A stretch of 64,000 nucleotides of DNA from Asterochloris sp. CNOR1 (lineage: Eukaryota > Chlorophyta > Trebouxiophyceae > Trebouxiales > Trebouxiaceae): the NCBI GenBank assembly GCA_963969365.1, contig OZ017759.1:186001-250000 (forward strand), written 5' to 3'. Below the pieces are notes generated by a model, which was not told the DNA's origin, did no database searches, and saw nothing but the letters and a program-made list of their open reading frames with translations. The stretch's first letter is position 1, and every line of letters starts with the position of its first letter. Shown here piece by piece: positions 23,280 to 62,189 of the stretch. The translations under genes were made by a program, and so were the position numbers.

Positions 23280-24639
23280 CAGGTTTCCCATGGCCGCTGT
23301 TGATGAAAAGGTTTGGCAGAGGCCACCTAACCTGGACAGAAGGCAGCAAGTGCAGAGGCAGGAGTCAGCCTGCCGGCTGAGCACCTCAAACAAGGCTGGC
23401 CAACCTCATCTTTCAGCTGCAGTGGGTGCAGGGAACTTATGTGCAGGGGCAATGTGAGAGTCTTGAGAGGCATTGCTGGAGGCTCAGGCGACTGTGTGAC
23501 TCTGACCAAGCAACAGCAAGGTCCTTGCACTCTCAGACCTGGCAACAGGTAGAGCTGGTTGTGCAGCCATGAGTGCCCACTGCTACCTACAGCAAGGTGC
23601 TGGCAGCAATGCTTATGAGACGTAAAGACTTCAGTCTTCAGCTTCAGTGAAGATGGTGCAAAGGCCATCCCGGGACATGAACATGTGCAGGCCTACTTGC
23701 TGTGCACAGGTGGCCATGGACAACATTAGACCTGTGGCAAGTGTCCCCTGCTTAGGGGGTCAGTTCAGCTGAAGTTGAACCCCTGTCTCAGAACTGATTA
23801 TGACTGCTACACTGTGCCCTCAGTGGCAATGCAAGACCCCAAAGCTGGCATGAAGCTGCACCTGTGCTTACCTTGAAAACATCACTTTCTTTCCATTCTG
23901 CTATTGTAAGGTCCTGCCCTTGCAGCCTAAAAATGCTCGTTCCAAACTTGTATGATGACTCTGACAGCATGTGGGAGGCCATCAGGGACCCAAAATTGGG
24001 CTAAGCACCACCTGGTCATGGCACCATTCACAAGTGGGCTCAGTGCCCAGCTGAGATCTGCGACATTCTGAAGACAGCTCATTGCATTTGACCGCCTCCA
24101 CACAGGGCAGACAGCTTGAAAGGACAGAGAACAAGCGAGGTCTCTGTCCATGCCACAAGAGTGTCCAACCATTTCAGTGCGTGACCTTTGACCTCAGATT
24201 GCAGCGGCATGGACTGCTGCAGGGTTGAAATACAAGGGCTGCAGTCGGTGTGGCTAGAGGAGTGCAAAACGAAGGCAATTGGGTTTGAGAACATCTTCAA
24301 AGCGACATTGTCCCTGGCAGGCTGAGTCACCACAGCTGGCAATGAGAGTCCTGAGGTTGCAATCACGCCGTCCAATGAACGCGTCAGCCATGGCAGTCTG
24401 ACATAGCTGCACAATCATGTAACACGTGAGCCGATTCTGGCATCTGCTGCTCTGGCGGGACCTTGGTTGTGCTGAACACGTGTCCCAGCAGCTGCAGGGG
24501 TTTGTGAGAAAGTTGGCAGGCCGCCTGGAGTCCAGCAGATGTCCAGACTGTGCCTGACCTGCTTGGGTTACCTGCCCATGCCCCGTCAGCCCAGAGACAG
24601 CAGCCAGACCGCATGGCATGAAGCTTGCCAAATGCTCTT

Positions 24640-25170
24640 GCAGGCAGAGATGCAGTCACCCAGGTGGGTCATGCCCACTGTGCATGCCAGCAGCTTGTCA
24701 AAGCCTGTGCCCTGAGCATTAGCTTGCTGCTCCAAGGGCCACCGTTCTGCAGGCTGAGCCCTGACAGGAGGCCACCTGGACTGCAGTGGCCTGTCCTCCA
24801 GTCCTCAGGTGGCCCACACCTGCCTTCATGCACACATGCCATTGGAGGTAACAGCAATGTCACGCTTTGCGCTAGTTGAGCCTGGACTGCTGAATGTTGC
24901 CATCTACAGTCCTGCATTCAGTATTGCTGATTGATACCAACCCTCATCATGCTGGCCAGCCTGCTGACTCCAGCCTGACCTCTGCCGCAGGCTGCTCACC
25001 CACACGTGGTGCCTGCAGTCGAAGTTGCGCTGAAGCGGCCTGCTGCTCACCACCTGTGCTTGTAATTTCTGCCAGTCGTCACCCATGCCACCGGCTTGGT
25101 TTCCTGAAACTAGCAGCAAACTTTGCCACCGTGCCCATCACCTTCCTATCAGAGGTAAAGTGTTCAAGCT
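24640..25170 (+). repeat. Element A: single left-arm copy of a unit duplicated in the right arm
   Basis: The stretch with CAGCAGCTTGTCAAAGCCTG (about 24687), a CCTGACAGG block and the GACTCCAGCCTGACCTCTGC block (about 24966) is the reverse-complement counterpart of 59090-59900 and of 59960-60830. A conserved open stretch (LKLAANFATVPITFLSE, followed by a GTAAAG donor-like site) may be an exon remnant. The family is not recognised. Confidence 0.6.
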
Positions 25171-25316
25171 GATATACTGTTTGCCCTGTCATCTTTTGTG
25201 CAACACCATGCACACCTCCACCAAAGCCGTCAATGGCTTGCCCTCCGGGCCTGCTCTACGTGTGGCGGCCACGTGGACAGTGCACTGCATGCATTGCAGC
25301 CTGCAGGAATTGCAGC

Positions 25317-25670
25317 CAGACTCATCAACAGACCAATGCAGCCCTGCATCCGGACTCCCTCCCCTGACAGCCCACAAGGGTTACATGAGGTTCCTGGCCA
25401 AGCCCATCTCCTGAGTGGCCTGCTATGCTTCTCCCTTCGGCCAGACTCATTGACAAACCAAAGCAGCCCTGCACCCCTTCCCAGAAAGCCCGCAAGATAC
25501 AAGAGGTTTCTGGCCAAGCCCATCTCGTGAGGAGCCTGCTATGCTTCTCCCTGCAGCCAGACCCGTTAACAGACCAATGCAGCCCTGCACCCCTTCCCAG
25601 AAAGCCCACACAATACAAGAGGTTTCTGGCCAAGCCCATCTCGTGAGGAGCCTGCTATGCTTCCTGAAGG
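25317..25670 (+). repeat. Tandem repeat, about 116-base unit, three copies
   Basis: Three adjacent units each contain a CCAATGCAGCCCTGCA-like block, TGGCCAAGCCCATCTC and CTGCTATGCTTC. The second and third units are the most alike. The right arm carries the same family inverted at 58640-59085 with about four units, so copy number has changed since the arms separated. Confidence 0.8.
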
Positions 25671-26039
25671 CTTCTGCCACTTGCCATCTGGTCAATGCAG
25701 GATGTTCCCTTCGAGCACGCTTCTCAGCCGTACCTCGCTCCACACTGTGTGGTTCATGGCCTCCACGGCACGCACCCCCTTTGCCGGCCAGCTTCAGCAC
25801 TCTGCTGACCTGCCCTGGGTGCTAAGCACAAGCTTCACTTGTCAGCTGAAGCAGGACTACTTCAAGCAGCAGCAGCCTAAACTTCAACCCCCAGAGCCCA
25901 GCTATGTAGGCTTCTTTCTATTGGTCAAGCAGGCAGTATTGCAGCAAGCAAGGAGCCTCATTTCAGAGTTGACTTTCTAATTGGACCCATGGGTTATTCA
26001 TGGCCATGGTTTTGGACTCATCAAATTTTGAGATTCTCA

Positions 26040-26530: not shown

Positions 26531-26949
26531 CGCGGGTGCGCTGGTCAGCACAGGTGACTGGGAGTGCCTGACACAGGCATGACATGCTAATCCAGTTGCT
26601 CCATGTGGGCTGCTGTATTGGCAGAAAAGTGGGCTTGTGGGCTGGTCCTTGCTGTCAGCAAATGCTGTTATCTTGTAGATGGCATGAGCTCAACAAGTGT
26701 TGGGGCCTCCTCATACTTGCCCTACTGAATCCCGCTGAGAATGTTTCCGACTGTGGCTACGCCTGCAGCTGCACAGACTGCCTGCTCCTGGGTGCTGGGC
26801 CCCTGGCCTTTGAGTGCTTAGCAAGGGAACATCTGGTGTCGGCGAACATGGCAGGACTGGTGCTACCTCAGGCAGCCGGTTCTGTATGGGTAGCCTCTGT
26901 CAGTAAGCCTGCTCAGGTGCTGCAGTATGGGACATCCCTGTGATTTGAA

Positions 26950-29189: not shown

Positions 29190-32100
29190 GTGGGGCCCAT
29201 TGCTGGCTTCTCAGCCTGGCTGCGGCAGCTGTGCTTGCCCAAAGTTTGCTGGCTTTCCCATGGTGTCTAAGTCTGCATTCTGTGTGGCTTGGCTTCACCG
29301 GCTTTGTTGTTTGCTGCTGTGTTGTTTCCTCTAGGCAAAGTTGGCAGCTTGTGGTTGTTTCTAAATCATGCTGCTGTGACTCAAGGAACTGGCTCACATC
29401 ATTACTGTCTTGAGTGCAGGGAGCAAGGCAGCTTAAGGGAACATTGCTGCACATCCACCTTGCCACCCTGAGGACTGGCAGACTGCTCACATGTTGAATT
29501 GCAGGGCCAGAAGGGGCTGTAACCTCTCTGGCTGCAGCGCAGGGCTTGGGGCCCCTTCAGCAGCCCCACCAGCAGCAGCCTTGAGGCCCAGCGCAGCATC
29601 AAAACGCTGCACCAGGGCGCTACTGCTGGCGTCAGGCATCCTGTGACCGTGGGCAGCCATGCTGGAGCTAGCTCGCTTCAGGCAGGTAAATATGCTGTCA
29701 GCAGGGTGTGCTGGGCATACACAGCGCAGGGAATGCCTGGTCCCGGCACCAATGGTGGGCTCCAGCATCAGCACTCCAGATGTGGGTGGACTCCAATATC
29801 CTCATTGATGACCACAACTGATAACATGTGGCTGCAGACTCTGTCTTTGCTGTGTTTGCTTCAGGGCAGCTGCCAAGTGCAGGCCCAGGGGACGCCACTA
29901 TTTGGCAGGCTGTTGCCTTCCTGCAAGGCATGTAGCCTGGTCTCGCAGGATGCATCATTTCCATGCCCAGCATGCTGACAAATGGCAATCTGCTGCAGAG
30001 TCAGCGTGGGACACGCCCCCCCCAGCACACGCCTCTGCAGGCTGGTCCAGCCACATGTTGTGTTTGTCTGGGTTTGTCCAGGCAGGGGGCTGCCCTCTGA
30101 ATATCTGGCGGACCAGCTCCCACCCCTGTTCAGGGGTACAGGCTGCGGCAAGCCCTGCTGCTGACGCGCCCCGGCAGGGGCCAGCCAGGTGAGCACCCAA
30201 ACAGGAGGGCACCTGCAGGGCTCTGGCCCCTGTGTGGGCCTCAAGAGACAACTCCACAATGTTGTGGCGTCAGCTGAAGCAGTGTGCCATTACAGCCTCC
30301 TGCACAGCGGTGGCTGGGCATGCGGCATGGACTGCAGAAGTAAGCGCCACGCTCCCATCATGACAGTCAGCACAACTCGCGTGTGCAGGGCTTTGCTGAG
30401 CACAGGCTTGCCTGCTGCAGGACAGGCAGCTAAATGATCATGAGACGGCCAGAGACCCTTACGTGAGCTGCCTGACAGACACCAATATGTTTGACACAGA
30501 GCAGCACTCTTTCAAGGCGACCAAGTGAAGCACTGCTTGGGCTCTGCCAACATGCTTTCAGTGCGGTCCACCTGACTGCTGTCATCCACTGTGGCTGCAT
30601 GCTTTGCTTGAGTGCCTGAGACTGATCAAGTTTGCCCTGCCCAGGCAACAAGCCTGCTAGATTGCCAGGCTCCAATTCAAGAGGTTGTAGTTCGCTGTCC
30701 TGCAGGCAGTCCTGATTAGCCTCATGAGTCTGGTGCTGGACGGCGCCACCCTGGCCCTGAGGGAGGGGCAGCTGCCAGCTGCTCACCGCAGGCCTGCGCT
30801 GATGCTGCTGTGGCTGCTGGCTTGCGTCCAAGTTCTCAAGTGGTGCCCTGCTGCTGCTGTACCTGGGACGTGCCTCCTCATACGGCTCGGGCTTAAACTC
30901 TACATCATGCTTTGCCGCCTCCAGCCCCGGCTCCTGCAGGTGTCGGAGGGGTGAAGGACGACGTCGAGGCCAAGCTTGAGTTGTATGGTGAGGTACATCC
31001 CAGCCTGGCTGGAGGTGCCATGTCTGACTCATGGCTTCAACTCGAGTGTATTGTTGCAGCACATCACAGGAGTCGACACCACACGTCAAATCAGGCAAGA
31101 GCCTTCATATGTGTTGCTGGCCTAACTCCTGGGTGCCTCATCAGCCTTGTGCGTGGCTGGCTGTATGTGACTGGCCTCGCGAATGTGATGCTGGATGCCG
31201 CGAGCCTGGCCCTGAGGGAGGGGCAGCTGCCAGCTGCTCGCTTGCTGCCCGCGCTGACACTGCTGCGGCTGCTGGCTATCATCCAGGACTGCAACAGCAG
31301 CCCTCTGCTGCTGCAGCTTGCAGTTCTGCAGGGACAGCCCCTGGATAGTTCTCTCAGCTGCTCCTGGGCATCAGCCACCTGCTTTTTTTTAGACATCTGC
31401 AGCAAGTCAGGGGGAGTGTGCTGCCCCTGGAATGTTGCACATTGCCATGGCAAGCAGGTGGCTGACGCACAGCGGCAGCTGGCGGGTGGGTGTGAAGCTC
31501 GCTGCCACCAGGGGCTATGCCTAACCGAGCTCATGACCTGCTGGCAGCACAGCATCGAAGTGCAGGAGCATATGCCTCTGTCTTTGCCATGCACCTGCAG
31601 TGTTCAGCTACGTCTGTGCTGAGAGAGCGCCTCCTGGGGCCAAGGCAAGGTCCTGTCAGGCGAAACGAGGCCTTTGTGCTCCCAGTCAGGCCAACTGCCC
31701 CTTCCAAGGAGGAGCTGCAGGTGATTATGGCCCTCATGTTACATGAGCTGCTGTACCTACTGGTTTGGCCAGTTCTTCATCAGCTCTGCCACCCCTCAGC
31801 AATACACTGAGGTGCCTGCACAACGGCTGGGCAGAGCCACGCAGACAGTGTGGAGGTGGCCACAGACCCTCTCATGAGCTGCCTAGCAGAAGTTGTAGAG
31901 TGGATGCCCACATGTTTGACAAACAGAAGCAGTGCTCAAAGGCAACTGAGAGAGCACTGCTCAGCTTCTGCTGCTTCACATGGGTCCACCTTTCCAAATG
32001 CTATCCACTGGGGCTGCAGGTTTGGCTTGAGTACTGAAGGCTGACTGACTGCGCATGCCCAGGCCAGGCAAGACGCCCTCTGGGTCGCCAGACCGCAATC

Positions 32101-33790
32101 TGAACATGTTGCTGTTGCCTGTCCTGCAGGAAGCTGAGCATGAGTGTGGTGCTGGATGCAGCAAGTGTGGCCCTTCAGGGAGGTGAGGGGCCGCTGCCAG
32201 CTGCTCACCGCAGGCCCGCCCTCACGCTGCTGCGGCTGCTGGCTTTGATCCATCACTGCAACAGCACCCTCCCTGCTGCTGTAGCTGCAGCTGGTGGCAG
32301 GGCTGCAGGAGCAGAGCATCAACATCTTGTGGCCAATGTGGCAATCGTGAACAAGCAGGCCCTGCAATGGGCAGGATCTCTCTCCAGGGGCCTTCCCTGC
32401 AGTGCTGTGCTCAGCCCTGGAGAAGCAGGTGCCCTTGCCTGAATGGGATCTGCCCGTGCGGCAGGGAAGCGCTCTCTCAGCACAGACATAGCTGTAGACT
32501 GCAGGTGCTTCACAAGGCCCAGCTGGTTCTGCCCCAGCAAATTGATGCTGTCCTGCCAGTGGTCCCTTTCATTGTGCAGCCCCTCTCTGTCACTTATGCT
32601 CAGCACCACTTGTGACAGCTGCCCCAGGGCAAGAGGAGCAGCCTGCTCCTTCAAGGCCGAGCACAGCTGTCACAAGTGGTTCTTGAGGTCTCTGACACGG
32701 ATGGGCAGCGCAATATGAGGGACCACTGCCTGGCCAGCATCAAATTGCTAGGGCAGAACCCGCTGGGCGGGCCAAGCACCTGCTGGCTACAGCTGCGTCT
32801 GTGCTGAGAGGGCGCCTCCTGCCGCAAGGGCAGGCCTTTGTGCTCCCAGTCAGGCCAGACGCCCCATTCAAGAGGAGCTGCAGGTGACTATGGCCCTTAT
32901 GTAACATGAGCTGCTGTACCTACTGGTTTGGCCGGTTCTTATCAGCTCTGCCACCCCTCAGCAACACACTGATCTACCCATTGCTTTCGTGGGTCCTGCC
33001 TGCATCTCAATGGTCCGCCCCTAAGAGTCAAGGCACCCGCATGGCCTTATCTGGAAGTGGTCCGTCTGGTGGCTGCAGGAGCTGGAAAGCTTGGCAGAAC
33101 CCACCCTGCAGCAGCTCAAGTCAGTGCAGTTGCAGCACAAGGCAAATTCCAGCAAGCCTGGCTGGCAGGGGCTGCTGGACCTCCTGCTCTGTGCCTTGCT
33201 GCAGCTGCAGGGCAGCCGCTGGATGGCGGCATCTTCCGGCTGCTGCTGCTGCTTGTAGAGCACGCACAGCATGCACAGCGGCTGGGCGAGACAGCTGCAC
33301 AGCGGGCTACCGTCCCTGGGTGCAAGGTCGCCCAGCTGGCGCGGCGCCAGGCAGCAGGATTTCCAGACCTGCCATTCACCCTGCCAGCCCTATCAGCGCC
33401 AGCAGTCCCTCCTGCATGGCCCCCAAGCCCACTGAGACCAACTGGTGCCGCACCAAACACTCTCTGGGTGTTTGCTGCGGCACCAGCAGATCGCGATGGG
33501 CTTGTGGGCTTTGCTGGACGAATTGCTGGCATTGACGAGGCTGGCAGGGTGAGTGGCGTGTCTGCAGGTCTGCTGCCTGGCAACAACACTGGGGACAGGC
33601 TGCGCAGGGGCAAGCCCCACCCCAGGGTGAAGATAGCAGGCATCACAAGCTGAGCAGCTTGCGCTGCTGTGCAGCTTGTGATGCCTGCTATTCTCAGAGT
33701 GGCAGGGTTGGTGTGCCGTGTCAGTGCAGGGGCACGCTCCAGCTTTACGTGTGAGCTGCAGACCAGTTGAGCAAGCCGCACATGAAGGCG
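29190..33790 (+). pseudogene. Left-arm unit L1: decayed copy of the unidentified helical gene
   Basis: It begins with a GCTGGCTTCTCAGCCTGGCTG block that recurs at 33797, marking tandem units L1 and L2. About 29502-29688 corresponds to the His/Gln-rich exon of the right-arm gene, but its frame contains a stop soon after the start (GQKGL then stop). The exon encoding LALREGQLPAAHRRPAL appears three times in this unit (about 30720, 31190 and 32140), in varying states. A final stretch near 33060-33380 matches the C-terminal part (LVEHAQHAQRLGETAAQ). With internal duplications and broken frames, it is best read as a rearranged pseudogene. Confidence 0.6.
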
Positions 33791-36700
33791 CTTGGGCCCC
33801 GTGCTGGCTTCTCAGCCTGGCTGTGGCAGCTGTGCATGCCCGAAACTCGCTGGCATGTCAATAGGGGCTGAAGCAGCTGGTCTGCCTTTTTGGGGGACTT
33901 GGCTTCAGCATCTTTGTTGTTTCCTCTGTGTCCAGCCTGTGTCTGACTATAAATGATGCTGCTGTGGCTGATGGACTTGGCTCACAGAATTACTATTTGA
34001 GTTGCAGACAGCAAGACGGCTTATGGGGACACTGCTGCACTTTAGCCTTGCCATTCTGAGGACTGACACACTGCTCACATTTGGGAATTGCTACGCTGTA
34101 GGGCCACAAAGGGGCTGTGACCTCTCAGCCCGCAGCGCAAGGCATGGGGCCCCTTCAGCAGCACTACCAGCAGCCGCAAGGTGTGTCGCAGCACCTACAG
34201 CTGCACCAGGGCGCTGCTGCTGGCGCCAGGCACCCTGTGGCCATGGGCAGCCACGGCAGAGCCAGTTTGCCTCGCGCTGGGCAGGTGAATGTGCTCGCCC
34301 AGCTTGGAATGCTTGGCAAGGCACACTGCAGGGAGTTCCGGGTGTACCTGCACAGGCCAGCCATTGTTGGCTCTAGCATGACACTCTAGGTGTAGGTGGA
34401 CTTGTTACTGTCATTGCTGGCCACGTCTGACAACATGGGGTTGCAGACTCTGCATTTGCGGTGTTTGCTGCAGGGCAGCTGCCAAGCCCAACTCCAAGAC
34501 AGGCTGCTGTTTGGCAGGCTGCTGCATTCCCCAAAGGCAGGCAGCTTGGTCTTGCAGGACAGACCGCATCCGCTGGTGAATGGCTCGCAGTTTGCACACT
34601 GTGCTGCTGCAGAGTCAGGGTGGAGCAGGGCCCCCTCAGCATGCGCCTGGGGCCAGTGCATTCCTCAGCAGCACCAGCTGCAGCAGCAGCAGGGACCATT
34701 GGAGCCTGTGAACCCCGTTGAGGGCTGGGAGCTGGTGTAGCGGAAGTTCAGAAGGCCAGCCCCCTGCCTGGGCTCACCAGGCATGCAACATGTGGCTGGA
34801 CCAGCCTGCTGAGGTGTTCTCCATGGGGGTGGTAACGGTTGACGGCAGCTAGGTGAGCACCCAAACAGGACAGCATCTGCAGGGCTCGGGCCCTGTTATG
34901 TGTGGGCCTCAAGAGACAACTCCACAACGCTGTGGCGTCAGCTGGAGCAGTGTGCATTTTCAGCCTCATGCACACCAGTGGGGGGCATGTGACGTGGATA
35001 GCAGATGTAAGCGCCACGCTCCCATCATCACAGTCAGCCCAACACGCCTGAGAATGTTGTTGCTAAGCATCAACGGTGCCTGCTGCAGGACGCGCCCCTG
35101 TCAGCCATCTCACCAGAGGATCTGTGGCCGTCTCTTCACTGTCCATGTGGACAGTGAGGAGATGGCCAGAGACGCTGTGGTGAGCTGCCTAGCAGAAGTT
35201 GTAGAGTGGATGCCGACATGTTTGACAGAGAGAAGCAGTGCTTGAAGGCAACTGAGAGAGCACTGCCTCGGCTTCTGCCGCTGCTTCACGCGGGGGCCAC
35301 CTTTTCAAAAGCTATTCACTGGGGCTGCATGCTTTGCTTGAGTACTGGGGGCTGACTGCGCACGCCCAGTTCAGGCAAGACGCCCTCTGAGTTGCCAGAC
35401 TGCAATTTGAAGATCTTGCTGTCCCCTGGCCTGCAGGATGCCCTCACCGGCCTCATGGGTGTGGTGCTGGATGCAGCAAGTGTGGCCCTGAGGGAGGGGC
35501 CGCTGCCAGCTGCTCACCACAGGCCCGCCCTTACGCTGCTGCAGGTGCTGGCCGCCATTCAGGGCTGCGGCAGCACCTCCCCCTGCTGCTGTAGCTGCAG
35601 CTGGTGGCAGGGCTGCAGGAGCAGAGCATCAACATCTTCCAGGCTTTGGCCGATGTGGCGATTATGCACATGCAGGCCCTGGACTGGGAGCAGGATCTCT
35701 CTCCAGGGGCCGTCCCTGCAGTGCTGTGATCAGCCTTGGAGAAGCAGGTGCCCTTGCCTGAATGGGACCTGCCCGTGCGGCAGGAGGCGCCCTCTCAGCA
35801 CGGACGCAGCTGTAGACTGCAGGTGCTTGCCAAAGCCCAGCTGATTCTGCCCCAGCAAATTGATGCTGTCCAGCCAGTGGTCCCTTAGAATGTGCAGCCC
35901 CTCTTTGTCAGTTGCGCTCAGCACCACTTGTGCCAGCTGCCCCAGGGCAAGAGGAGCAGCCTGCTCCTCCAAGGCCGAGCACGGCTGTCACAAGTGGTTC
36001 TGAGGGTCTCCAACACAGACAGGCTGCACAATTTGAGAGACCACTGGCTGGACAGCATCAATTTGCTGGGGCAGAACCAGCTGGGCTTTGTCAAGCACCT
36101 GCTGGCTACAGCCGTGTCCGTGTTTGAGAGGGCGCCTCCTGCTGCAAGGGCAAGTCTCCGTCAGGCAGGGCCAGGCTGTTGTGCTGCCAGCCAACCTGAC
36201 TCCCCCATCCCCAGACGAGCTGGAGGTGATCTTGGGCGTTCTCTTGCATGAGCTGCTGCTTTGGCCTTTGGCAGCAGTCCCTCGGCAACACACACATGTG
36301 TCTATTGCTTTCGGTGGCTCCAGCCTGCGGCTCATGGTCCACATGATTGACTCAACCCTCAGAGTTGAGCACCCAGCATGGCATCTTCTGAAAGCAGTCA
36401 GCCTGTTGACTGCAGGAGCTGATGCGCTCGGCAGGCCCCACCCTGGAGCAGCTGAAGTCAGTGCAGCTGGAGCACAAGGCAGAGATCACCAACCATGCCT
36501 GGCAGCAGCTGCTGGACCTGCTGCTGCACCTGCAGGCCCGCCTGCCGGAGGGCGGCATCGCCCAGCTGCTGCTGCTGCTGCATTTAGAGCATGCACAGAG
36601 CGCACAGCAGCTGGGCGAGGCAGCTGCTGAGCGTGCTGGCGTCCCAAGCAGCGAGGCTGCCCAAGCTGTGGCGGCACCAGGGAGCAGGCTTGCAGACCTG

Positions 36701-37050
36701 CCTGGCGCTGCTGCTGCTGCAGTCCCTGGTGACTCATGGAACTGGGAAGCAGACCGCACTGGATCAGATGTTCAGGAGTCTGCTCATCCCAGCCTCATGT
36801 GGCACCATCAGCAGCAAGGGTGGGCGGTGTGAGATGCTGGCATCAGTTCAGGCACAGCCCCCCGCTTGTCTGAGGAAGCAAGTCCTAGGCAGGCTGGCCT
36901 GCTAGGGGAGCTCTCCAGAGATGAGACAACCATCGCTATGCAAAGTCCCGCATAGCTGGTGATGGCAGCTTCTTACATGCCTCATTTTGAGAGAGATGGA
37001 TGGGATTACCTGGCTGTGTGTCACCAGGAGTGTCCTGATGGTATGCAGCT
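33791..37050 (+). pseudogene. Left-arm unit L2: second decayed copy of the helical gene
   Basis: Collinear with the right-arm gene: the His/Gln-rich exon at about 34102-34284 ending in a GTGAAT donor, a central exon beginning near 35437 (ALTGLMGVVLDAASVALREG), and a C-terminal part from about 36420 (TLEQLKSVQLEHKAEITNHA). The exon matching the right-arm EEAWGRVRQKFAGQ stretch has stops here (about 34720-34850). The C-terminal frame shifts by one base near 36650 relative to the right-arm copy; the two share the same downstream residues (GLQTCLA..LQSLV) in different frames. Likely a pseudogene, although an untested splice form cannot be excluded. Confidence 0.6.
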
Positions 37051-37269
37051 AGAAATTGCTCCACATCTCTCATTCACTCAGGCATCCAAGAAGTTGCCAT
37101 CACCAGTCCTGCAGGATTTTGCACAGCAATGGTTGTCTCCTCTCTAGAAAGCTCCTCTAGCAGGCCAGCCAGCCTGGGACATGCCTCTTCAGCAAAGCTG
37201 GGGCCTGTGCTTGAATAGATGTCAGCAGTCAACACTGTACACTGTTACAGCAGTGTAGAGATGCAATAG

Positions 37270-46200: not shown

Positions 46201-49069
46201 TGGTCAACCAGGGCTTGGTGTTGCTGCTGTGAAGTGACTGCATGTTGCATCAGCAGAGCGGAATACTGTCAGGAACCTCTGACAGCAGGCTGCAGCTGGT
46301 GTTCTGAATCTGGGTGTCTGCCCATCTATGCAGGCCCGTTCAAGGCAGGCTGACAAGGAGGTGAGGGTCATTGACATTGCATATCTGCCTTGCACTTGCC
46401 CTTGTGTATGCAAAACCAGGCCATCTGCATGTGCAGGCCATGCATGTCAAGCTGTGGCTGCCCAAGCAAGCACCTTGCACTCTCAGTCCACGCATGATGT
46501 GTGGAAGCCATATTCAGCACACAGAGCAGTGGATCGTCGCCGTGCAGGAGTGGAGGAGTCTGGAGGAGTGCATCTGTTATGGCAAGCACCTCACAAAGTG
46601 GGGCTACACAATAGTGGGGCACCTGGGCATGGGCACGACGTCGCAGGTGTTCAAGTGAGCGGGGCAGCGACATCAAGTTCACCTGTTTAAACCCATGGCC
46701 AGCCAGCAGCTGCACCACAGCTAGATCTGAGCCAAGTTTAAGACCTCTGGGTACGGCAGCTGAGTCACCCCAATGTGTTGATGCGTATATGCACATGCCA
46801 AAGAGGGCACTGCCTCAGCATCAGCTCCACTCCGTACTCCAGCTGGCATCGGTGGACATTGCATCACCCACAACAGAGCTTATGCTGGCCAGACCTCGCA
46901 ATGGCACCTGCAGCCTCAGACAGGCTGCAGCCCAGCACTCTCATTATGCGCCGCACTCCCTGTGCAGCAGGTCAGTCAGGCTGTCGCCGTGCTGTGCAGC
47001 GGGCATCCGCAGCAGCCATCCATGCAGCGCTGCAGCGCCTGGGCGTTTCAAGGCCCACCCGGCCGCCGTCCCTGCTGCCAGCGTTTCTGAAGCTGTAGGG
47101 GTGCACAGCAGCGCCTCTGTGCCCTGTACAGCGCATGGCTCACCCCGCTGCTGTGCCTGCTTCCAGGGTCGAGAAGGACCGCCAGGCCTTTGCAGTCAAG
47201 GTCCCAGGAAGGCAGTGGGCAGATCTGCCACGGAATGCCCACCTCCTCCAGATGGAGGCAGACAGGCACAAGCTGCTGGCCCCCATGAAGCGTGGGGTGA
47301 TTCGCGTGCTCTTCGTGAAGACGGTCACTGAGGCCACCCTGCAGCTTCCTTTACTCTTCATGAAGAGAGCGCTGGTGCCAGCCTCTGCCTGTCCTCTGTG
47401 CTGGCCCTGGTCCTGTTGCGCTGTCTCTGCTGCTGTGTGAACCTGTGCTTGGTGGGTCACACCATACGTCATGGCAGCTGCTGAAGGTCAGGCAGCCCTT
47501 CAGCATGACTAATGGCAGACAGTCTTGTCCTTTGACCTCGCATGTCAGTGGTCACTGTATTGCTTGCTGCTGCCGGACACTGCAGGTGCTGGTGTGCACG
47601 GTGCTGTTGGCATTTATAGGATGCACAGGCTGCAGTAGGTGCAAGTACGCCCAGAACACCGCTGGTCACTGCAGGCATGCTCATGACACGTGCTGCTCCA
47701 AGTGCAGTGTGGCCCTTGGCAAGACTGTTCGCAAGTACATGAATCCGCTTCGCACCCGTGTGGTGCTCGACCCATCTGTGGAGGCGCAGCAGGCTCTTGT
47801 GAGGGAGAGTGCCCGGCTGGTCCTGGAGCTGGCCGAGGTCGGCTCTGCTGCAGGGTGCTGGGTGCCCGCCCCTGCCATCAACAGGCCCCAGCTGCCTCTC
47901 CCGCTGATGGCTGGCCCGCCGCCTCTGCTGCTGACGTGGCACAGCTGCATCTGCTGGTGCATGACTGCTTGCTGCTCCTGCTGCCGGCAGTGCTGCTGCT
48001 CCCGGTGGTTGGTGTTGCTCATTGCTTTGATTGCTGGCAGGTCAAGGGTGCCCTGGCTCCTGCTTTCTGGTCCGCCTTGACGTTGGCACGCGGTTTGGCA
48101 GCTGTCAGCCGCTTTGCGGATAAGCTTTTGCATCAGCGGCTGCAAGGCAGGGCTGTGCTGCTGACTCTCTGTGTCTGCTCCTGCCCTCAGTTGGTGGACG
48201 AGCTGCACACCACAACAGGGTGTACGCACATGGACATCAAACAAGAGAATATCTTCAAGGAAGCTGGTGGACCCATGCACCTTTTGGACCTCCAGGGCAT
48301 GCCTGGGGTGGACACACGTGAGCGTTCCCGCAGCTGAATACAGGCCAGCCCACTCTGTGCAGACCTGCCACACCTGGTGCATGCCTGCTCACAGTGCAGC
48401 TCTCCGCAACAGCATCAGGGTCCCCATCACCTGCCTGTCTGCAGCAGTCACAGCCTCGCCCTCTCTCCTGCAGCACTGGCTACCATCTTTTAAGTCGACA
48501 CCCTTTATGCTTCAGAACGTCCCCCTTGCCGTTCAGCTGCCAGGGGAGAATGCTAGAACGGCCGATGCTTTCAGTGTGGGCACTCTCTTCTTTGCTTTGC
48601 TGGTAAGCTATTAGCGCTTGGCATGTCTGCAACAAGGTCCCCCCCAGTGTTTGCCTTTCTCCTGTTGCACCGCGGTCTCATCAGAGTCCCGCCTTTCCGC
48701 TTGCAGACCGCAAGTGAGATGTTCAAATGCCATCACAACAGCCGTAACAGCCATGCAATCGTTGTGAAGGTGACCAGCTCACAAAACAGCTGGGTGAGTG
48801 GCTTGATGGAGTGCTGCTGTCATGCCTCAAGAAGCGCTGTCACGCTGACTTTCTTGCTGTGCCCCATGCAGAGACAACTGGCCGCTGCCGGCCAGCTGCA
48901 GCAACACGAGGCCATGCAGTTCCTGGCCGGATTCTTGCCCAGCCTGCAGCATGAGCAGCAGGTCATCTGCAGGCTGCTGGGGCGCTTATGCAACTTTGAC
49001 TCAAAGCAGAGAATGACTCTGCAAGAGTTGCGGCGTGACGGCGATCTGCTCAGCCTGAGCCGGCTCTGA
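37270..49069 (+). CDS. Long coiled-coil protein with a C-terminal protein kinase-like domain
   Basis: Many exons are in phase 0 with TGCAG acceptors: 37270-37461, 37808-37864, 38506-38610, 39308-39532, 40060-40290, 40637-40873, 41151-41249, 41517-41594, 41799-41912, 42271-42420, 42847-42894, 43515-43796, 44225-44451 and others. They encode Ala/Gln/Glu-rich heptad-like helices (VEAQLQASQQQAEVKAAAVE), then an acidic stretch (DEFDEEELQEELPEDE). The kinase part follows: glycine loop GHLGMGTTSQVFK (ends 46654) joining in phase to VEKDRQAFAVKV (47167); catalytic loop THMDIKQEN with LLDLQG in place of DFG (48191-48317); STPFML and ADAFSVGTLFFALL (48474-48602); 48707-48769; final exon 48872-49069 with FDSKQRMTLQELRRD. 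Lys, catalytic Asp, Asn and the DFG Asp remain, so activity is possible; the APE Glu is lost. One apparent frame change lies in the coiled coil near 40160. The 5' end and the 45-48 kb exons are uncertain. Confidence 0.7.
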
Positions 49070-49218
49070 AACTGAGGGCCAGCCAATACTATGTTGTGTG
49101 TTACACTGTCACATTATGGCACACTGGACACCTATGGACTGCACTTGAAGACACTACAACTCTTGTCTAGGATCAAGACACAGTCCTGGTATGCCAGAGA
49201 ACAAAATCAGTCTTGCTC

Positions 49219-52200
49219 TCAATGAGGCATCCAAGAAGCTGCCACCATGAGCAATCCAGGGTCGCGCATAGCAATTGCTGTCTCGCTTCTTGAGAGCGCC
49301 TGGAGCAGGCTAGCCGGCCTAGGCCATGCCTCCTCATACAAGCTAGGGGCTGTTCTTGAGCTGATGTCAGCCTCCAACACCGCTGGGCCTTTCTGCTGGT
49401 GGTGCCACGTGAAGCTGGCCATGAGGAGGCTGCTGGAGATCTCATGTAGAGAGGTCGGCCTCCCAATGCCATGAAACACCAGGGACTGCAGCGGCAGCAG
49501 GGCCACCAGGCAGGTTTGCAAGCCTGCCGCCTGGTGCTGCCCCAGCTGGGCAGCCTGGATGCTTGGGATGCCATCACCTACAGCAGCTGCCTCGCCCAGC
49601 TGCTGCGTGTGCTGGGCATGCTCTGAAAGCAGCAGCAGCAGCTGGGCGATGCCGCCCTCCGGCAGGCGGGCCTGCAGGTGCAGCACCAGGTCCAGCAGCC
49701 GCTGCCAGGCATGGTTGGTGATCTCTGCCTTGTGCTGCAGGTGCAGTGACTTGAGCTGCTCCAGGGTGGGCATGGCCAAGCCCATCAGCTCCTGCAGCCA
49801 GCAGACAGACTGCTTTCGGATCAGGCCATCCTGGGTGCTCAAGTCTGAGGTGCGTGGCTCAGGCGGCCCACGAAGATGCATACAGCACTCGCCAAAAAGC
49901 AGCGGGTACAACAGTGTGCGCTCACGGGTGGCAAAGCTGCTGAAGGACTGCTGCTCAAGGCCAAAGCAGCAGCCCATGCAAGACAATGCCCAAGATCACC
50001 TTCAGCTCGTCCTCGGATGGAGGAGTCAGCGTGGTTGGCAGCACAACGGCCTGCCGCTGCCTGACGGGGACCTGCCCGTGCGGCAGGAAGCACTCCCTCA
50101 GCACAGACGCGGCTGCTGACTGCAGGTGCTCAGCAATTCCCAACAGGTTCTGCCTCAGCAGTGTGATGCTGTCCTGCCAGCGGTCCCTCAGGGAGTGCAG
50201 CCCGTCTCCATCTGAGATTTCGAGAACCACTTGCGCTAGCTGCCCTGGGGCAAGAGGAGCGACCTGTCTCTCCAGAGCTGTGCGCAGCACTGCAGGGAAG
50301 GCCCCTGGAGAGAGCTGCTCCCACAGGATCGCATGCTTGTGCATGATGGCCGCCTCGGCCACAGCCTGGAAGCTGTTGGCGCGTGTCTGTCCCTGCAGCC
50401 CTGCCACCAGCTGCAGCTGCAGCAGCAGGGGGCTGCTGCTGTGGTGGTGGCTGCAGGCCAGCAGCCGCAGCAGCGTCAGCGCGGGCCTCAGGTGAGCAGC
50501 TGGCAGCTGCCACTCCCTCAGGGCCAGGGTCACGGCATCCAGCACCAAACTCATGATGCTGGTCAGGGCGTCCTGCACGACAGAGGACAGAAACATTCGT
50601 CAGCTGCAGTCTGGCGATCCAGAGGGCTTGTCGCCGGGACAGGGCAGGCCTAGCCAGCCTGAGGCACTCAAGCATGCAGCCACAATCCTATGACAACTGA
50701 GAGGTGGACCAGATTGGATGCATCTTGGCCATAGCCAAGCAGTGGTCTCTCAGCTGCCCTCAAGGAGCGCTTGTCTGTGTCAGACGTTTTGGGCGTCCAC
50801 ACTGCAACCTCTGCTAGGCAGCTCACCAGGGGGTCTTTAGTCGTCTCTTTGCTGTCTTCCTGGGGCGTGTCCTGCAGCAAGCAAGTCCTTGCTCAGCAAC
50901 AACCTGCTCAGGCGTGCGGTGCTGACTCTGATGACAGGAGCGTGACTCTCACTTCTGTGATCCATGCCGCATGCCTAGCCAGATGCCCAGCCACCGCTGT
51001 GCACGAGGTGCACACTGATGCAGCTCATGCCACAGCATTGCAGAGTTGTCTTGTGAGGCCGACACATGACAAGGGCCACAGCCCTGCAGAGGCTGTCCTA
51101 TGTTAATGCTCACCCGGCTGCCGTTGACCGTCGCCAGCCACTCCTCAAACAGGGCAGCATGCTGGCCCAGCCATGCGCTGAATGCCAGACCCGCCCAGGT
51201 GGGGGGCTGCCCTGCAAACTTCTGGCGCACCCGGCCCCAGGCCTCTTCTGCCGTCATGGGCAGCGGCGGGCCCTGCTGCTGCTGCGGCTGCGGCTGTGGG
51301 GCATGGACTGGCTCAGGCGCGCACTCAGTCCCGCTCTGACCCTGCAGCAGCGCAGTCTGCACGCTGTGAGCTGCTTGCCAACTGTCTGCATGCTGGACAT
51401 GGACATGGTGTCCTTTGCAACTAATAGCTGCGCCCTTCAGGAAGGCAGCAAGATGCAATACAGCGGCCTCGCCTCAAGCTGGGCTTGGCAGCTGCCCTGC
51501 AGCAAAGGCAGAGCAAAGCAGAGACTGAGTCTGCAGCCACCTGTCATCCCTAGCGGCCAGCAATGAGAACACTGGAGTCCAGTCACATCTAAAGAATCAG
51601 TGCTGGAGCCCACCATTGGTGCCGGCAGTGGTTTGTCAAGGCACAATCAGGCACTCGCTGCAGTGTCTCTGCCCAGCAAACCTCACTGGCAGCATGTTCA
51701 CCTGCCCAGCGTGAGGCAACCCAGCTCCGGTGTGGCTGCCCATGGCCACAGGGTGCATGACTTCAGCAGCGCCCTGGTGCAGCTGTGGGTGCTGCTGAGG
51801 GGACCCAAAGCCCTGCGCTCCAGCCTGAGAGGTCACTGCCCCTCTTTGGCCCTGCAGCACAGCACTTCCCAGACGTGAGCAGTCTGCGAGTCCTCAGGGT
51901 TGCGAGTCTGGGGTGCAGCAGTGGCCTGCATGCCCTCTGTGATGTGCTCAACGTACAGGCCTGCATCAGGAGGCCAGCAGCCAGGTGCACCCACACTGGG
52001 TACAATGGGGCACAGGCAGAGCAGCCAAGAATGTCACTGGCGCGCTGCAGCAGGCACAGCAGCCTTTCCCGTCTGGTGACTCATCAGTGCTGTTCATGAC
52101 AGTCGTACAGCATGCTGGGCACCATGCTCACCTCTCCAGCAACCAAGTCAGCAACAGCCGCCACAGCATCCTCTCTCTCCTGCATCTCCCTCAGCAAGGG

Positions 52201-52759: not shown

Positions 52760-54870
52760 GCACCTGGGTAGGGCCAGGCGCTGGTGGGAGACTCCTGGAG
52801 CTCCTCCGGAGCTTGGCGGGCGGGCTGGCTGGGGCCCTGGGGGCTCCTCTGGGGACCCTGCAGCAAGCAACAGGCCACATGTCAGGCTGGAAAAAAACCA
52901 TGTGGATGGGCAGAGACTAGGCTGAAGGAACCACATCGTCGTGTTGTGGCTTGCTTCAGGCTGCTCAGGCTGAAGCTTGACAAAGTCGCAACACACGGGC
53001 TGTTGCCAGGCAGCCGGGTGCCGCTCCACTCACCTGCCCAGGAGCCTGCCTGCCAGCGTGTCCACTGCTGCCCAGCCCCCCATCATGCCTCTCGGCAACC
53101 CCTCTGCCCTGGCCTGCCAGCTGCATGGTGACAGGCTGTGGCTGCAGCGGCTGGTGGGCCCCCTGCCGCTGCTCCAGGAAGGCCCTCCCGGGCCCATGGC
53201 TGTCGCCAGCCTGTGGCGCCATGGCCCCCTGAAGCGCCTGGCTGCCGCCCTGCAGGCCCTGCGCCTGCCCTGCTCCCACAGGGACTGCCTGCTGGGGCGG
53301 CACCAGCCCCTGCACGGGCCCTGCCCCGCGCTGGCCCCCCTGCGGCAGCACCGTCTTCACTGGTAAAAGGGGATGGCTGGGGTCAGCACACCAAGTGAGG
53401 TGAGTCTTGCAGCGCTGTTGCAGCCAAATCCATGATGCAGCATGTACAACCTTCTGCAGTTGCTGCCCACGAGACTGTGTCAGACGCTGCAGTAAATTGT
53501 CCAGGTTGGGAGACAGCGTCACAACTCACTAACAGGCAGGAAAACATGCATCTCCCTGGCTAGCATGGCCTTGAGGTAGGCGTCACCTGCAACGCAACAG
53601 GCCGAGAGCTGGGCGGCCACTGCAGGGCTGTGGGCAGACTGCAGCACTGGGCACCTGGGCAACCTCATGCCATGGACAGCATGAGCTGTCCAGCAGGCTT
53701 GACAGTCACAGACTGGTGCAGCAGCATGTTCTTCTCCTGTACCCACTGAAGGAATGGGATGCCTGTGTGCATGACAGGCTCGCTGAGCACCCGCTTGGCT
53801 GGCAACCCACTCACGCTAGCTGTCGGAGCACCATTGCGCTCCCTGGGGCCACCAGCCCTGGGGCCATCCCCAGCCCTGGCGCCCCCACCATGCCAGCCGG
53901 GCGCCAGAGGGGTGACCAGCGCTTCCAGCGGCTGCTCCTGCGGCGCCGGCCCGGTGGCTGCGCCAGCAGAGCCCTGCAGATTGGGGCTCCAGCCAGGCGC
54001 GGAAGGGGTGATGGCGACTGCCGGCGGCCGCTGCGACGCCGCCCCGGCGGCCGCTCCTGATGAGCCCTGCACATCGAGGCAGGCAGCACACCTGACCTGC
54101 TGTAAACCCTCAGGATGGTGCCCTGTACTCTCACAGTGCAGCAGCGGGTCCTGTGCAGTGTGTTCCAGCCGAAGTGGGGTGGACTAGACTGAAGCTTGGC
54201 TATGCAGGAAGGAGTCATCTCAGAGGCGGTCCATGTATGCGCTGGGGTCTGCAATATGTCCAGCCAGCCTAAGGTGCAAAGGCGGGCCAAGGGCATTCTG
54301 CAGAGTTCGACAATCTGTGAGCTGCAGATGGCAGCAGCGCAAGGCAACAGGTCGACGCCAACCTGCTGGCCACCCTGACACATGTGCCTGACGCATAGTG
54401 CCTCCCCTCTGCACAACATTTGGCACCCAGCCGCTGCCAAAGCTCTCACAGGCAGCAAAGGAGGCATGCAACACACAGCAGGGGCGCATGAAGACCCAGG
54501 CATAACCATGTGTTAGCCTCTTAACAACACCACCGACAGCAGAAGAGCTTGGCTGTCGAGGCTGACCTGCGCCTGCTGTCCCTGTGCGGTCTCATGGCCT
54601 CCAGCGCCGCGCCCTCCACTGGCCTCCTGGCCACTGCCACGCCCTTGCTGGACCCTGCCGCGTCCACGCCCAGCCCGGCCACCCCTGCCACGGCCAGGCT
54701 GATCGGGCCTTGTGCTGGTGATCAGGAGGACTTGACGTCCTCCTGGGCCAGCAGAGGGCACACCCTGCAGATGCAAAAGCAGTTTGTGATGCTTTATAAG
54801 GAGTTGGGGCAAGGTTGCATCCCACAGGGCCTGCCAGCTGTGAGCTGCAGGAGGCACCCACATCCTGGCA
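52760..54870 (-). CDS. Probable Gln/Gly/Pro- and RG-rich exons, possible 5' part of the helical gene
   Basis: Minus-strand candidates flanked by CAG and GTG(A/C) sites: about 52865-52770 (Pro/Gln/Ser-rich), 53361-53029 (Gln/Gly/Pro-rich, GAGQAQGLQGGSQALQGAM), 54066-53740 (Ala/Gly/Pro-rich, QPLEALVTPLAPGWHGGG) and 54770-54545 (RG-rich, GRGRGGRAGRGRGR). All lack hydrophobic core character and would form a disordered, possibly RNA-binding stretch. Linkage to the downstream helical exons is inferred only from strand and position. Low complexity makes the exon limits unreliable, and plus-strand frames over the same bases are also open because of the composition. Confidence 0.35.
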
Positions 54871-55705
54871 GCTTATGGTGCAGGGCAGGGACACTGCAGG
54901 ATGTCACCAGTCATGAGCTGCTAAAGGCACAACAGCCCAGGTGTGAGCTGCAGAAGGCAGACGGGTCTTGAGAGCTAGTGGTGCAGGGCAGGAACACTGC
55001 AGGATGTCACCACTCATGAGCCGCAACATGCACAATAGCCCAGGTGTGAGCTGCAGGAGGCAGACGGGTCTTGAGAGCTAGTGGTGCAGGCAAAGATCCT
55101 GCAGTTCGTCACCACTGCTGCAAAATGCACAATAGCCCCGGAGCCAGCTGCAGGAGGCTACCACATCCTGGCAGCTTTCGGTGCAGCCAGGGATCCTGCA
55201 GGATGTCACCAGTCATGAGCTGCAACATGCACAATAGCCCAGGTGTGAGCTTCACAAGGCAAACAAGACTTGAGAGCTTGTGGTGCAGGCAAGGATCTTG
55301 CGAGATGTCGCCAGTCATGAGTTGCAACATGTACAATAGCCCAGTTGTGAGCTGCAGAAGGCAGACAAGTCTTGAGAGCTTGTGGTGCGGGCAGTGATCC
55401 TGCAGGATGTCACCAGCCATGAGCTGCAAAATGCACAGCAGCCCAGGTGTGAGCTGCAGAAGGCAGACGTGTCTTGAGAGCTTGTGGTGCGGGCAGTCCT
55501 CATGCAGGGATGTCACCTGCTATGAGCTGCAAAATGCTCAATAGCCCAGCTGTGAGGTGCAGGAGGCTACCACAGCCTGGCAGCTTTCGGTGCAGCCAGG
55601 GATCCTGCAGGAATTGACCAGTCATGAGCTGCAAAATGCGCAATAGCCCAGCTGTGAGCTGCAGAAGGCAAACGGGTGTTGAGAGCTAGTGGTGTAGGCA
55701 GTCAT
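54860..55705. repeat. Minisatellite, about 102-base unit, eight or more copies
   Basis: Each unit carries CTGCAGGATGTCACCAGTCA or a close variant, then ATGAGCTGC, AATAGCCCAG, GTGAGCTGCAG and GGTGCAGGCA. Two unit subtypes alternate: one has GACGGGTCTTGAGAGCT, the other CTACCACATCCTGGCAGCTT. Related half-units occur singly at about 56485-56590 and 56940-57070, inside the neighbouring triplicated unit. Confidence 0.85.
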
Positions 55706-56165: not shown

Positions 56166-56179
56166 GGCAAAGTCCTCTT

Positions 56180-57595: not shown

Positions 57596-57698
57596 TACAG
57601 TTATTCCCCCTGCTGCAGCATCAGAGCTAAATCAAGCTTAAAGCCTCTCTGACACAAGCAGAACCATGCAGTATGGCTGAAATAGTGCCAGTGCTAGC

Positions 57699-59085: not shown

Positions 59086-59089
59086 CAGG

Positions 59090-60830
59090 CTGCAGGCCCT
59101 GAAGGCTGTAATGCGTGCAGTGGCGCTCATAGGCAGTTCAGGCAGGGAACAGACTGATGATGGCTTTGGTGGAGGTGGACATGGGCGTGGTGGATGCTTG
59201 AAAGATGACAATGCACACAATGTATCTGTTTGGACACTGAGGGAATCACCTCCGACAGGAAGATGATGGGCATGGTGGCTTTGCTTCCTGCTGGCTTCAG
59301 AAGCCAGCAGGTGTGTGTGTGAGGGCTGGCAGACAATACAAGCACTGCTGGTGAGCAGCTGACCATTTTGGCGCAACTTTGCTTGAGGGCGCCACGAGCG
59401 GGTGAGCAGCCTGCGGCAGAGGTCAGGCTGGAGGCTCAGCAGGCTGACCAGCACAACGAGGGTTGTTGTCAATCAGCGATGCATCATGCAGCACTGCAAT
59501 GGCGGCATTCAGTGGTCAAGCACAACCAGAACAGGCACTGCGTGCCGCGACACTGCGTGCATACTATTGCTGATCCAGCCCAAAGTGTGCATAGCAACCT
59601 GCTTGAAGAGAGGCTTGGTGTGCAAATTCCACTGCCATGACATCACCAGGCCTTCTGAGTGCTGCAATGGCATGTGTGGATTCATACGCCCAGCAGCATA
59701 GGTCAGCACCGCAGCCATGATTTGACAAACATAACATAACCCCATACAATTGAATAACTGCAGCAGGCATGGACCACATATTGAGCGGAAGACTGGCAGT
59801 GCAGGGCACGCTGGGCCCCTGTCAAGGCTCAGCCTGCAAATTATGGCCTGAGGAGCAGCAAGCAATGGCTCAGGGCATAGGTTTCAACAAGCTGCTGGCA
59901 TGCGTAGTGGGCATGACCCACCTGGGCAATTGCATCTCTGTCTGCAAGGACTCAGCAAGCTTCAGTGGGCCTCCAAGGGAGAACTCACGGCGGCGTCGGT
60001 CTATTGATGAGTCTGGCTGCAGGCCTCAAAGCTGAATCGCATGCAGTGCCGTCCACAGGAGCACAGCATGATGATGGCTTTGGTGGAGGTGGGCGTGATG
60101 TTGCACAAAGCATGACATGAGAACAGTATCTCTGCCTGAGCACTGAGGGATTTACCTCCAGTGGGAAGGTGAGGCGCCTGCTGACTTTGGTTGTTGCTGG
60201 CTTCAGGCACCAAGCAGATGTATGTGTGACGTCTGGCAGACAATGCAAGCACTGCTAGTGAGCAGGTGGCCGTGGATTCGGCGCAACTGCGTCTGAGGGC
60301 GCCACGAGCGGGCGAGCAGCCTGCGGCAGAGGTCAGGCTGGAGTCTCAGCAGGCCGACCAGCACAAGGAGGGTTGTTGTCAACCAGCGATGCATCATGGA
60401 GCACTGTCATGGCGGCATTCAGTGGTGTACGCACAACGAGCACAGCCACTGCGAGCCGCGACACTGCGTGCATAGTATTGCTGATCCATCCCAAAGTATG
60501 CATAGCAACCTGCTTGAAGAGAGGGCTGGTGTGCAAATTTCACTGTCTTGACAACACCAGGCCTCTGACTGCTGCCATGGCATGTGTGAATTCATACGCC
60601 CAGCAGCACAGGTCAGGCATTGCAGCCACAATCTGACAAGATACTCTGGACCCCATGCAGAGCTCTGCACTAGGTCTGGGCCACCTGATGACTGAAAGAC
60701 AGGCAGGGCAAGGCACAATCGCCCCTGTCAGGGCTCAGCCCATAAACTGGTGGTGTTGGGAGCAGCTCAAGGCACAGGCTTTGACAAGCTGCTGGCATGG
60801 ACAGTGGGCATGACCCACCTGGGCAATGGC
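59090..60830 (-). repeat. Two tandem copies (about 0.85 kb each) of element A
   Basis: 59090-59900 and 59960-60830 match each other through several blocks: GCGCCACGAGCGGG, AGCCTGCGGCAGAGGTCAGG, GGTTGTTGTCAA, CATAGCAACCTGCTTGAAGA and TGTCA(A/G)GGCTCAGCC. The left arm has one copy (24640-25170, +). The duplication therefore probably happened in this arm after the inverted duplication, or one copy was lost on the left. Confidence 0.75.
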
Positions 60831-61379
60831 CAGGTAATCAGAGCAGGTCAGACGTCTGCTGGACTCCAGATGGCCTGCCACTCTCTATAGCAAAGTCAAC
60901 AGCCCCTGCAGCCGCCGGGGCACGTGTTCAGCTTGAGCGAAGTCCAGCCAGAGCAGCAGGTGCCAGACATCCCCACTCATGTGCTGGACTGGGCATAATG
61001 CCTCGGCTGATATCCTCATTGGAACGCACACACTTGATGCATTTGCAACCTCAAGACACTTGTTGCCAGATGTGATGAGCTCAGCATGAAGTACACATGT
61101 CGATGTAAAGGGCTCTTGGCCCCAAACTGCTTACATAGCCAAGTGTTCATTGCCATCGTTTTGCACTGCTCCAGGCGGTGGACTGCAGCCTTTGTGCTTT
61201 GCACCCTTCAGCAGCCGTGCTATAATCTTTACTCTGCTGCAATCCATGTGCTTGGCAAACATAGCGGTCAAAGGCCAAGCAATGCTCTTGTGGCTGGCAT
61301 GGGCCAGCGTAGTCACTTGTTGCTTAACCTTTCAAACTAGCTGCCCTTTGTGGAGGCAGGCAAGGAATAGGTTGCCACC

Positions 61380-61520
61380 AGATTGCTACGGCAGATCTCA
61401 GCTGGGCACTGGGGCCACAAAAAAAGGATGGACTGACCAATTGGTGGTGGGTAGCTAAGCTTTGGGTGCCACTTGCCCATGGTGGCCTGTCAGATGCTGT
61501 CAGAGTCATCACACAAAGCT
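61380..61520. repeat. Outer-arm homology block matching 23935-24060 inverted
   Basis: Shares, inverted, CAGTGCCCAGCTGAGATCTG and TGATGACTCTGACAGCAT with the left arm near 23950-24060. It anchors the outer part of the inverted duplication beyond element A. Confidence 0.75.
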
Positions 61521-62189
61521 GGAACGAGCTGTCACGACTGAATGGCAGGACTTTTGCTCATGATAGAAAGGAAGTGACACCTGCACATGCAAAAAAAGGG
61601 AAAGATACTCGAGCATGTCTTGCATCACAGCCTGTTCATCTCATGCCATCACTTAGTAGTCCCTGTCAACCAGGTACAGGCATTATATGTCAGCTGAATA
61701 GACCCCTGAAGAAGAATGCGTAAACTTGGCAAGACATGTACAGCAAGCTGGTCCTGCACATACCCAGGAAGGCACCTGCGCCACCTTCTTGAAACTGGAC
61801 AGTGCAGCAGCTCTGCAAGGCAAGCCTGCAGTGCTCATGGTGTACAAGTTGTTCGCCGCCAGCACCTTGCTGCAGAACAGCAGTAGGCACTCTTGGCATC
61901 ACATTAAGCTCTGACTGCAGAGGGTGGTTTGAAACAGGTCTTGCTACGTCAATTCACACAGATTGCGTAAACCTCCAGCAATGCCTCTCAGGTATCCCAC
62001 ATTGCCCACCCACATACGTGCTCCGGACCCCCCTTGCAGCTGACCGCCACAGACTGGCACAAGCAGGTTCCTTGAGCTGCTCAGGTGACAGGCAGACTCC
62101 TGCCATTGCACGCGCTGCGCAAGACCCACAAAGGCTTCGCTCTGAGCAGCGCCAGCACTAGCTGCTGCTCTTACATTTTGCAAAGCTCA

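Follow-up and report, generated by a model that had tools for sequence, protein, structure and literature searches.

An old, decayed inverted duplication around a kinase-like gene in the green alga Asterochloris sp. CNOR1

Inverted duplications have been described in several settings. In the human fold-back inverted duplications of one reported series, the two copies are separated by an unduplicated spacer of 766-70,466 bp with a short inverted sequence at its edge, and homologous repeats lay at the edges in 3 of the 21 junctions sequenced (PMC3907307). In yeast, breaks near inverted repeats are reported to generate inverted duplications via fold-back priming (PMC10622511). Two other systems have an inverted layout: P8 of the human Y chromosome, a gene-bearing palindrome described as being kept by arm-to-arm conversion (PMC6790999), and small RNA genes, some of which are reported to have been born from pseudogenes through inverted duplication (PMC3237417). 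Here we analyze a 64,000-nucleotide stretch of Asterochloris sp. CNOR1 (Chlorophyta, Trebouxiophyceae; assembly GCA_963969365.1, contig OZ017759.1, forward-strand positions 186,001 to 250,000), called the window below and used for all position numbers, in which two inverted arms of about 13 kb flank a 12-kb spacer with a kinase-like gene. The right arm carries an apparently intact gene, which we call R, and the left arm carries two broken copies of it, T1 and T2. Most probably, the locus is an old segmental inverted duplication that afterwards decayed asymmetrically, and it is a further example of an already known kind of inverted duplication.

As with the human and yeast fold-back duplications with a disomic spacer, in so far as those accounts describe them, two inverted copies surround a spacer that was not duplicated (of 12 kb in the alga and 0.77-70 kb in human), and a short homologous sequence is found at the spacer edge (PMC3907307, PMC10622511). 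Unlike them, the algal duplication is interstitial, small, ancient and decayed, its breakpoint is not readable at base level, and its edge repeat has the same orientation as the right-arm end. It resembles P8, as described, in having rearrangement-prone inverted arms that each bear a gene copy (PMC6790999), but its arm blocks are 65-80% identical and not homogenised, and the gene model is open in one arm only. Finally, as in the pseudogene-born small RNA genes reported (PMC3237417), the left arm has long hairpins made from exons of an apparently intact gene; in contrast to those genes, the wobble and match statistics are here within neutral expectation. Literature searches, which give no proof of absence, did not lead us to recognise a comparable layout in a green alga.

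Two inverted arms around a single-copy spacer

A sensitive self-BLAST of the window aligned the left arm (23343-36993) antiparallel to the right arm (62118-49216) in 10 matching blocks of at least 140 columns each, picked by score with an overlap of up to 20% allowed. Typical antiparallel matches are 36017-36993 with 50207-49216 (E 0.0) and 25311-26245 with 58981-58108 (E 2e-125). Strict order between the arms is kept by 9 of the 10 blocks, and the exception consists of two swapped neighbours (left 24619 and 24868), which are swapped because each of them matches both copies of a tandem duplication in the right arm (59062-59930 and 59989-60827). The initial annotation had proposed a large, old inverted duplication around a kinase-like gene, and both its coordinates and its kinase were right, as the ten antiparallel blocks and the Pfam Pkinase match described below attest; the self-comparison returned strong antiparallel blocks in order rather than scattered short matches. 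Its description of the arms as having the same order in opposite orientation applies to nine blocks of ten, but the continuous antiparallel line that it expected is interrupted by a large unaligned middle. It had also noted that the copy number of sub-repeats differs between the arms, and this is so. The 116-bp minisatellite common to both outer segments is repeated 2.4 times on the left and 4.0 times on the right, about 870 bp of sequence are doubled on the right only, a segment of about 1 kb is doubled on the left only, and a 102-bp satellite is private to the right arm.

The arms have diverged widely. Over the 5,918 ungapped columns of the ten blocks the arm-to-arm identity is 78.5%, and the BLAST identity per block, with gaps counted, is 65-80%. 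In the left arm 6,200 of 13,651 bp are alignable, and in the right arm 6,137 of 12,903 bp, so that over half of each arm no longer aligns. The middle portions (about 28.0-34.0 kb and 55.7-51.9 kb) fail to align with each other: the left one is a second, mosaic copy of the inner segment, and the right one is made of the 102-bp satellite and about 2.9 kb of mostly unmatched sequence. Both arms are nevertheless real and have sharp ends. Just inside the outer end the inverted local score was 270 (shuffled maximum 32), and past the two outer ends it was 35 and 32, compared with shuffled means of 34.2 and 30.1 and maxima of 38 and 40.

No conserved coding signal was detected in the outer segments, where substitutions are spread flatly over the three phases and indels are mostly not multiples of three. 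Pfam returned no family above cutoff for 20 open frames from the outer arms and the left inner copies; a Zein match among these frames (E 0.048, 13.7 bits with a cutoff of 24.6) was dismissed as chance.

An open gene model on the right, broken copies and fold-backs on the left

The exons modelled for R are 51851-51702, 51341-51114, 50871-50827, 50572-50000 and 49791-49222, followed by a stop codon at 49221-49219, a few bases from the right-arm end at 49216. All are in phase 0, AG precedes every exon, and GT follows every exon except the last. The G+C content at the three codon positions of its two longest frames is coding-like (0.71/0.43/0.78 and 0.65/0.47/0.74). The 5' end of R was not found, the modelled exons starting at 51851. 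A stretch present in the right arm only, 52000-54800, has raised G+C content (0.64 at 52-54 kb) and long minus-strand frames with abundant Q, G, P and A, and it could hold the 5' exons of R. The last two exons, joined, had no Pfam match and no PDB sequence match up to E 10, and the open frames of the inner arms gave nothing above the Pfam cutoff. AlphaFold, run on a single sequence of 204 residues in which exon A is read on into the intron, predicted mostly helices with a mean pLDDT (predicted local distance difference test) of 43.4, too poor for a fold search.

That R has stayed a gene is suggested by its apparently intact open frame. We simulated neutral change on R in 2000 runs, assuming 0.03 indels per substitution: at 1, 2, 3, 5 and 11% change the chance of staying open was 0.42, 0.20, 0.10, 0.015 and 0, and when stops alone were counted it was 0.63, 0.37, 0.23, 0.095 and 0.01, chances that flatter R because the splice sites chosen in the model favour an open frame. 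We infer that R is expressed and functional.

The left copies look different. Measured against the R frame, the 517 codons compared for T2 contain 6 stops and 10 indels whose length is not divisible by 3 (two being pieces of a fold-back insertion), and the 467 codons compared for T1 contain 3 stops and 23 such indels. In exon A the closest pair is T1 and T2, at an identity of 0.87, and their identities to R are 0.79 and 0.77. Exon B differs: over its first half the closest pair is T2 and R (0.90; 0.80 and 0.77 for the other pairs), and T1 is barely alignable over its second half. Since the closest pair switches between exons A and B, T1 was seemingly assembled from pieces of differing origin or age.

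The mismatches between the copies lack clear codon periodicity. Between T2 and R they number 109/101/120 by codon position, of about 520 sites each (p 0.44); sites at which T1 and T2 agree against R number 47/52/62 (p 0.34), and exon-by-exon mismatch counts between the copies are also flat over the phases. In the whole set of self-matches, p fell below 0.05 for codon phase in two only (0.01 and 0.032), both direct repeats within one arm. This flatness fits left copies that evolve without constraint, and is no proof of constraint on R.

Fold-backs are concentrated in the left arm. The sensitive self-BLAST (E up to 1e-8) identified eight self-palindromes (27503-27641, 28770-28965, 32450-32833, 33346-33581, 35103-35190, 35749-36173, 36835-37227 and 57698-57807), and a separate self-BLAST a short ninth, at 33633-33691. 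None of the nine falls outside the arms and the left inner edge, and the stretch 27.5-37.2 kb contains eight of them (seven of the eight in the sensitive set). Consistent with this, an ungapped scan identified five palindrome centres, with 33-41 of 50 matches and all in the arms, four of them between 28.8 and 35.2 kb and the fifth in the right arm at 57.75 kb; the maximum in three shuffled windows was 29. The 425-bp palindrome made from exon A is duplicated as 32430-32834, and the two, including the palindrome at 32450, count as one event. Its predicted RNA fold has an energy of -343 kcal/mol, compared with a mean of -167 in 30 shuffles. At the left inner edge, the second half of the boundary palindrome, 37074-37235, reproduces a short piece of the gene end, oriented as in the right arm, and matches 49219-49380 directly at 74%.

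Origin of the duplication and rival explanations

The layout is most probably accounted for as follows. A single old inverted duplication of about 13 kb would have left copies flanking the 12-kb spacer with the kinase gene. It would likely have arisen by fold-back or template-switch repair synthesis, which would leave the spacer in single copy and place a short inverted sequence at one of its edges, and afterwards the arms would have decayed independently. In the right arm one multi-exon gene, which lies tail to tail with that of the kinase, would have stayed apparently intact, and the left-arm copies would have turned into pseudogenes, been duplicated again and been broken by further fold-back events. 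The 12-kb spacer, which is single-copy within the window, and the palindrome at its left edge fit a fold-back event, although the polarity of the edge copy is not exactly as the simple model has it. Within an old duplication, a fold-back origin seems to us about evenly balanced. The geometry, the divergence, the absence of clear codon periodicity, the palindromes and the contrast of an open R model with broken left frames are observed; the single event, the role of R as donor, the repair mechanism and the order of events we infer.

Several observations weigh against this account. The third-position excess between T2 and R is slight and not significant, and ordinary protein constraint on R predicts a pile-up of mismatches there. 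Exons are not consistently better conserved than introns (between T2 and R, 0.68 in exon gamma and 0.79 in intron 2). Constraint on R may be no more than weak, or luck and the choice of splice sites may each explain part of its open frame; at 1-3% neutral change it stays open with a chance of 0.42-0.10. The boundary copy at 37074-37235 has the direction of the right-arm end, and a simple fold-back model does not predict exactly this. The three gene ends, compared over 191 shared columns, are 75%, 74% and 69% alike, so evenly diverged that the order of events is not readable from them. At the spacer edges, finally, the inverted local scores were 39 and 31, slightly over those of 20 shuffles (means 33.2 and 22.8, maxima 37 and 27), and a short, weak homologous remnant past the arm ends is possible.

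An alternative that we regard as improbable is that the left arm is a source of small RNAs: pseudogene transcripts would fold into long hairpins and regulate the surviving gene in the right arm, and the old duplication would then be at an early point in the birth of a small-RNA gene by this route. The strong predicted folding of the left palindromes makes this conceivable. The antisense half of a left hairpin has an exact match of 22 nt to exon A of the right-arm gene, but 220 of 2000 permutations reached this length, which is thus no longer than chance at this identity. Nor was there enrichment for the G-U mismatches that wobble selection on the hairpins would leave (53.5 on the plus strand and 46 on the minus strand, the eight palindromes summed). 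No result favours left-arm hairpins making small RNAs against R.

It is more doubtful still that the arms hold two diverging paralogues in inverted orientation, both working. Open frames of moderate length do survive in the left copies (for example, 30897-31622), but with R as reference these copies are disrupted by frameshifts and stops and their exon A is interrupted by a fold-back insertion, and a pair under selection finds no support in the non-significant third-position excess.

Very little probability attaches to the reading of 23343-62118 as a mobile element with very long terminal inverted repeats and the kinase gene as cargo. Inverted termini with sharp ends are what such an element would have, but the outer flanks (30 bases each, compared by eye) have no common short repeat, with the reservation that old target sites decay. 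Furthermore, no mobile-element family was above the Pfam cutoff in 60 open frames, 40 of them inside the unit (the 60 being part of 1,650 frames of at least 25 codons), and of 24 pattern matches to the exon A frame in viral contigs, none was confirmed as a relative.

We give just as little credit to an assembly artefact, such as two haplotypes or unrelated contigs joined head to head, as the arms differ by 20-35% with many indels, beyond what is expected between alleles, and have satellites and duplications private to one of them. This divergence, far over allele level, makes a haplotype join an unlikely cause.

Spacer inversion or conversion between arms is expected to need long stretches of identity. 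The initial annotation had suggested that the arms could promote both, and an active palindrome of this kind, in which the arms convert each other and the spacer flips by recombination between them, is the least probable explanation: the inverted geometry suits it, but the arms are far from near-identical, their blocks being 65-80% identical, their middles no longer align, and only six exact matches reach at least 30 bp, the longest being 58 bp. At this identity and with such short exact matches the arms are poor substrates for recombination that inverts the spacer, and the suggestion of inversion is left unsupported. As for conversion, there is no general homogenisation, and the sole hint is a tract of about 230 bp at 90% identity that contains the 58-bp exact run, a run length reached in 0 of 2000 permutations. 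It lies in the first half of exon B and may record a minor conversion event or residual constraint. The further speculation, that the locus might be a mating, allorecognition or defence region, found no pointer in the Pfam-scanned frames or in recognisable neighbours, in the one sequence available. The locus looks like a product of ordinary genome evolution rather than an active switch.

The spacer gene, the flanks and the meaning of the locus

The kinase domain of the spacer gene was recognised by Pfam (Pkinase, E 2.6e-9, 37.3 bits with a cutoff of 31.7) in a 293-residue spliced model, in which the last exons are joined by our own splice choices; the frame of a single kinase exon alone scored 11.5 bits. 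The best PDB relatives of the model are weak (ribosomal S6 kinase alpha, E 0.0043). DFG and HRD are the usual catalytic motifs of kinases. In the translation, read by eye from our splice model, DLQ stands for DFG and HMD for HRD, and the set of catalytic motifs is incomplete; by its predicted sequence the protein may be a pseudokinase. The domain ends at 49069, 150 bp from the stop codon of R, so that the two genes lie tail to tail. Another spacer frame (39014-39574) had a Peptidase_A3B match in a glutamine-rich stretch (E 0.029, 15.6 bits with a cutoff of 28.2), which we took as chance.

Outside the duplication, the left flank carries a VPS11 gene, identified with Pfam, and a PI3/PI4-kinase-like frame below the Pfam cutoff (23.2 and 27.1 bits, respectively). 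Within VPS11, at 11115-11459, there are about 2.4-2.7 tandem copies of a unit of 123-130 bp, the repeating stretch reading EHMRLFREVMQ, which looks like an exon duplication inside a conserved gene. Near the left end of the window, 1-235 and 2549-2782 form a 235-bp direct repeat with 90% identity. Near the other end, a minus-strand frame of 266 codons (63201-63998) is leucine-rich-repeat-like by eye and has no Pfam match. Rfam at gathering scores and a tRNA scan found nothing in the window. The coordinates of the features of the locus are collected in Table 1.

Table 1. Features of the inverted duplication and its spacer, in window positions
Feature	Position	Strand	Basis
Left arm, outer segment	23343..28026	+	Antiparallel blocks to 62118-55677; mismatches spread evenly across the three phases
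Left arm, inner copy T1: a mosaic, disrupted form of the gene that contains one more fragment (30182-31323)	29193..33373	+	Matches T2
Left arm, inner copy T2: a broken counterpart of R	33794..36993	+	34027-35749 and 35991-36993 match 51926-50262 and 50233-49216
Fold-back palindrome of 425 bp with near-zero spacer, made from exon A	35749..36173	.	Self-inverted, 81% identity
Fold-back palindrome at the inner left boundary	36835..37227	.	Self-inverted, 76%
Spacer, once in the window	37236..49215	.	Self-BLAST: no second copy except a 71-bp match, 45668-45738 / 62488-62558
Protein kinase domain (C-terminal) encoded by the spacer gene in several exons, approximate start	47168..49069	+	Spliced model, Pfam Pkinase
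Right arm, inner segment	49216..51926	-	Antiparallel to 34027-36993
Gene R, five phase-0 exons	49222..51851	-	Open model of 522 codons
Satellite of 102 bp, 8.5 copies, right arm only	54834..55701	.	Tandem-repeat analysis of the window
Right arm, outer segment	55677..62118	-	Antiparallel to 23343-28026

If the left-arm hairpins were processed into small RNAs, the locus would be a gene-silencing locus in the course of being born from a pseudogene. As an old duplication that has decayed asymmetrically, it illustrates clearly what happens to an inverted duplication with age: the gene persists in one arm, and the other turns into an array of duplicated and folded-back pieces. That the near-zero-spacer palindromes cluster in a single arm suggests that a region of this sort gives rise to more fold-backs.

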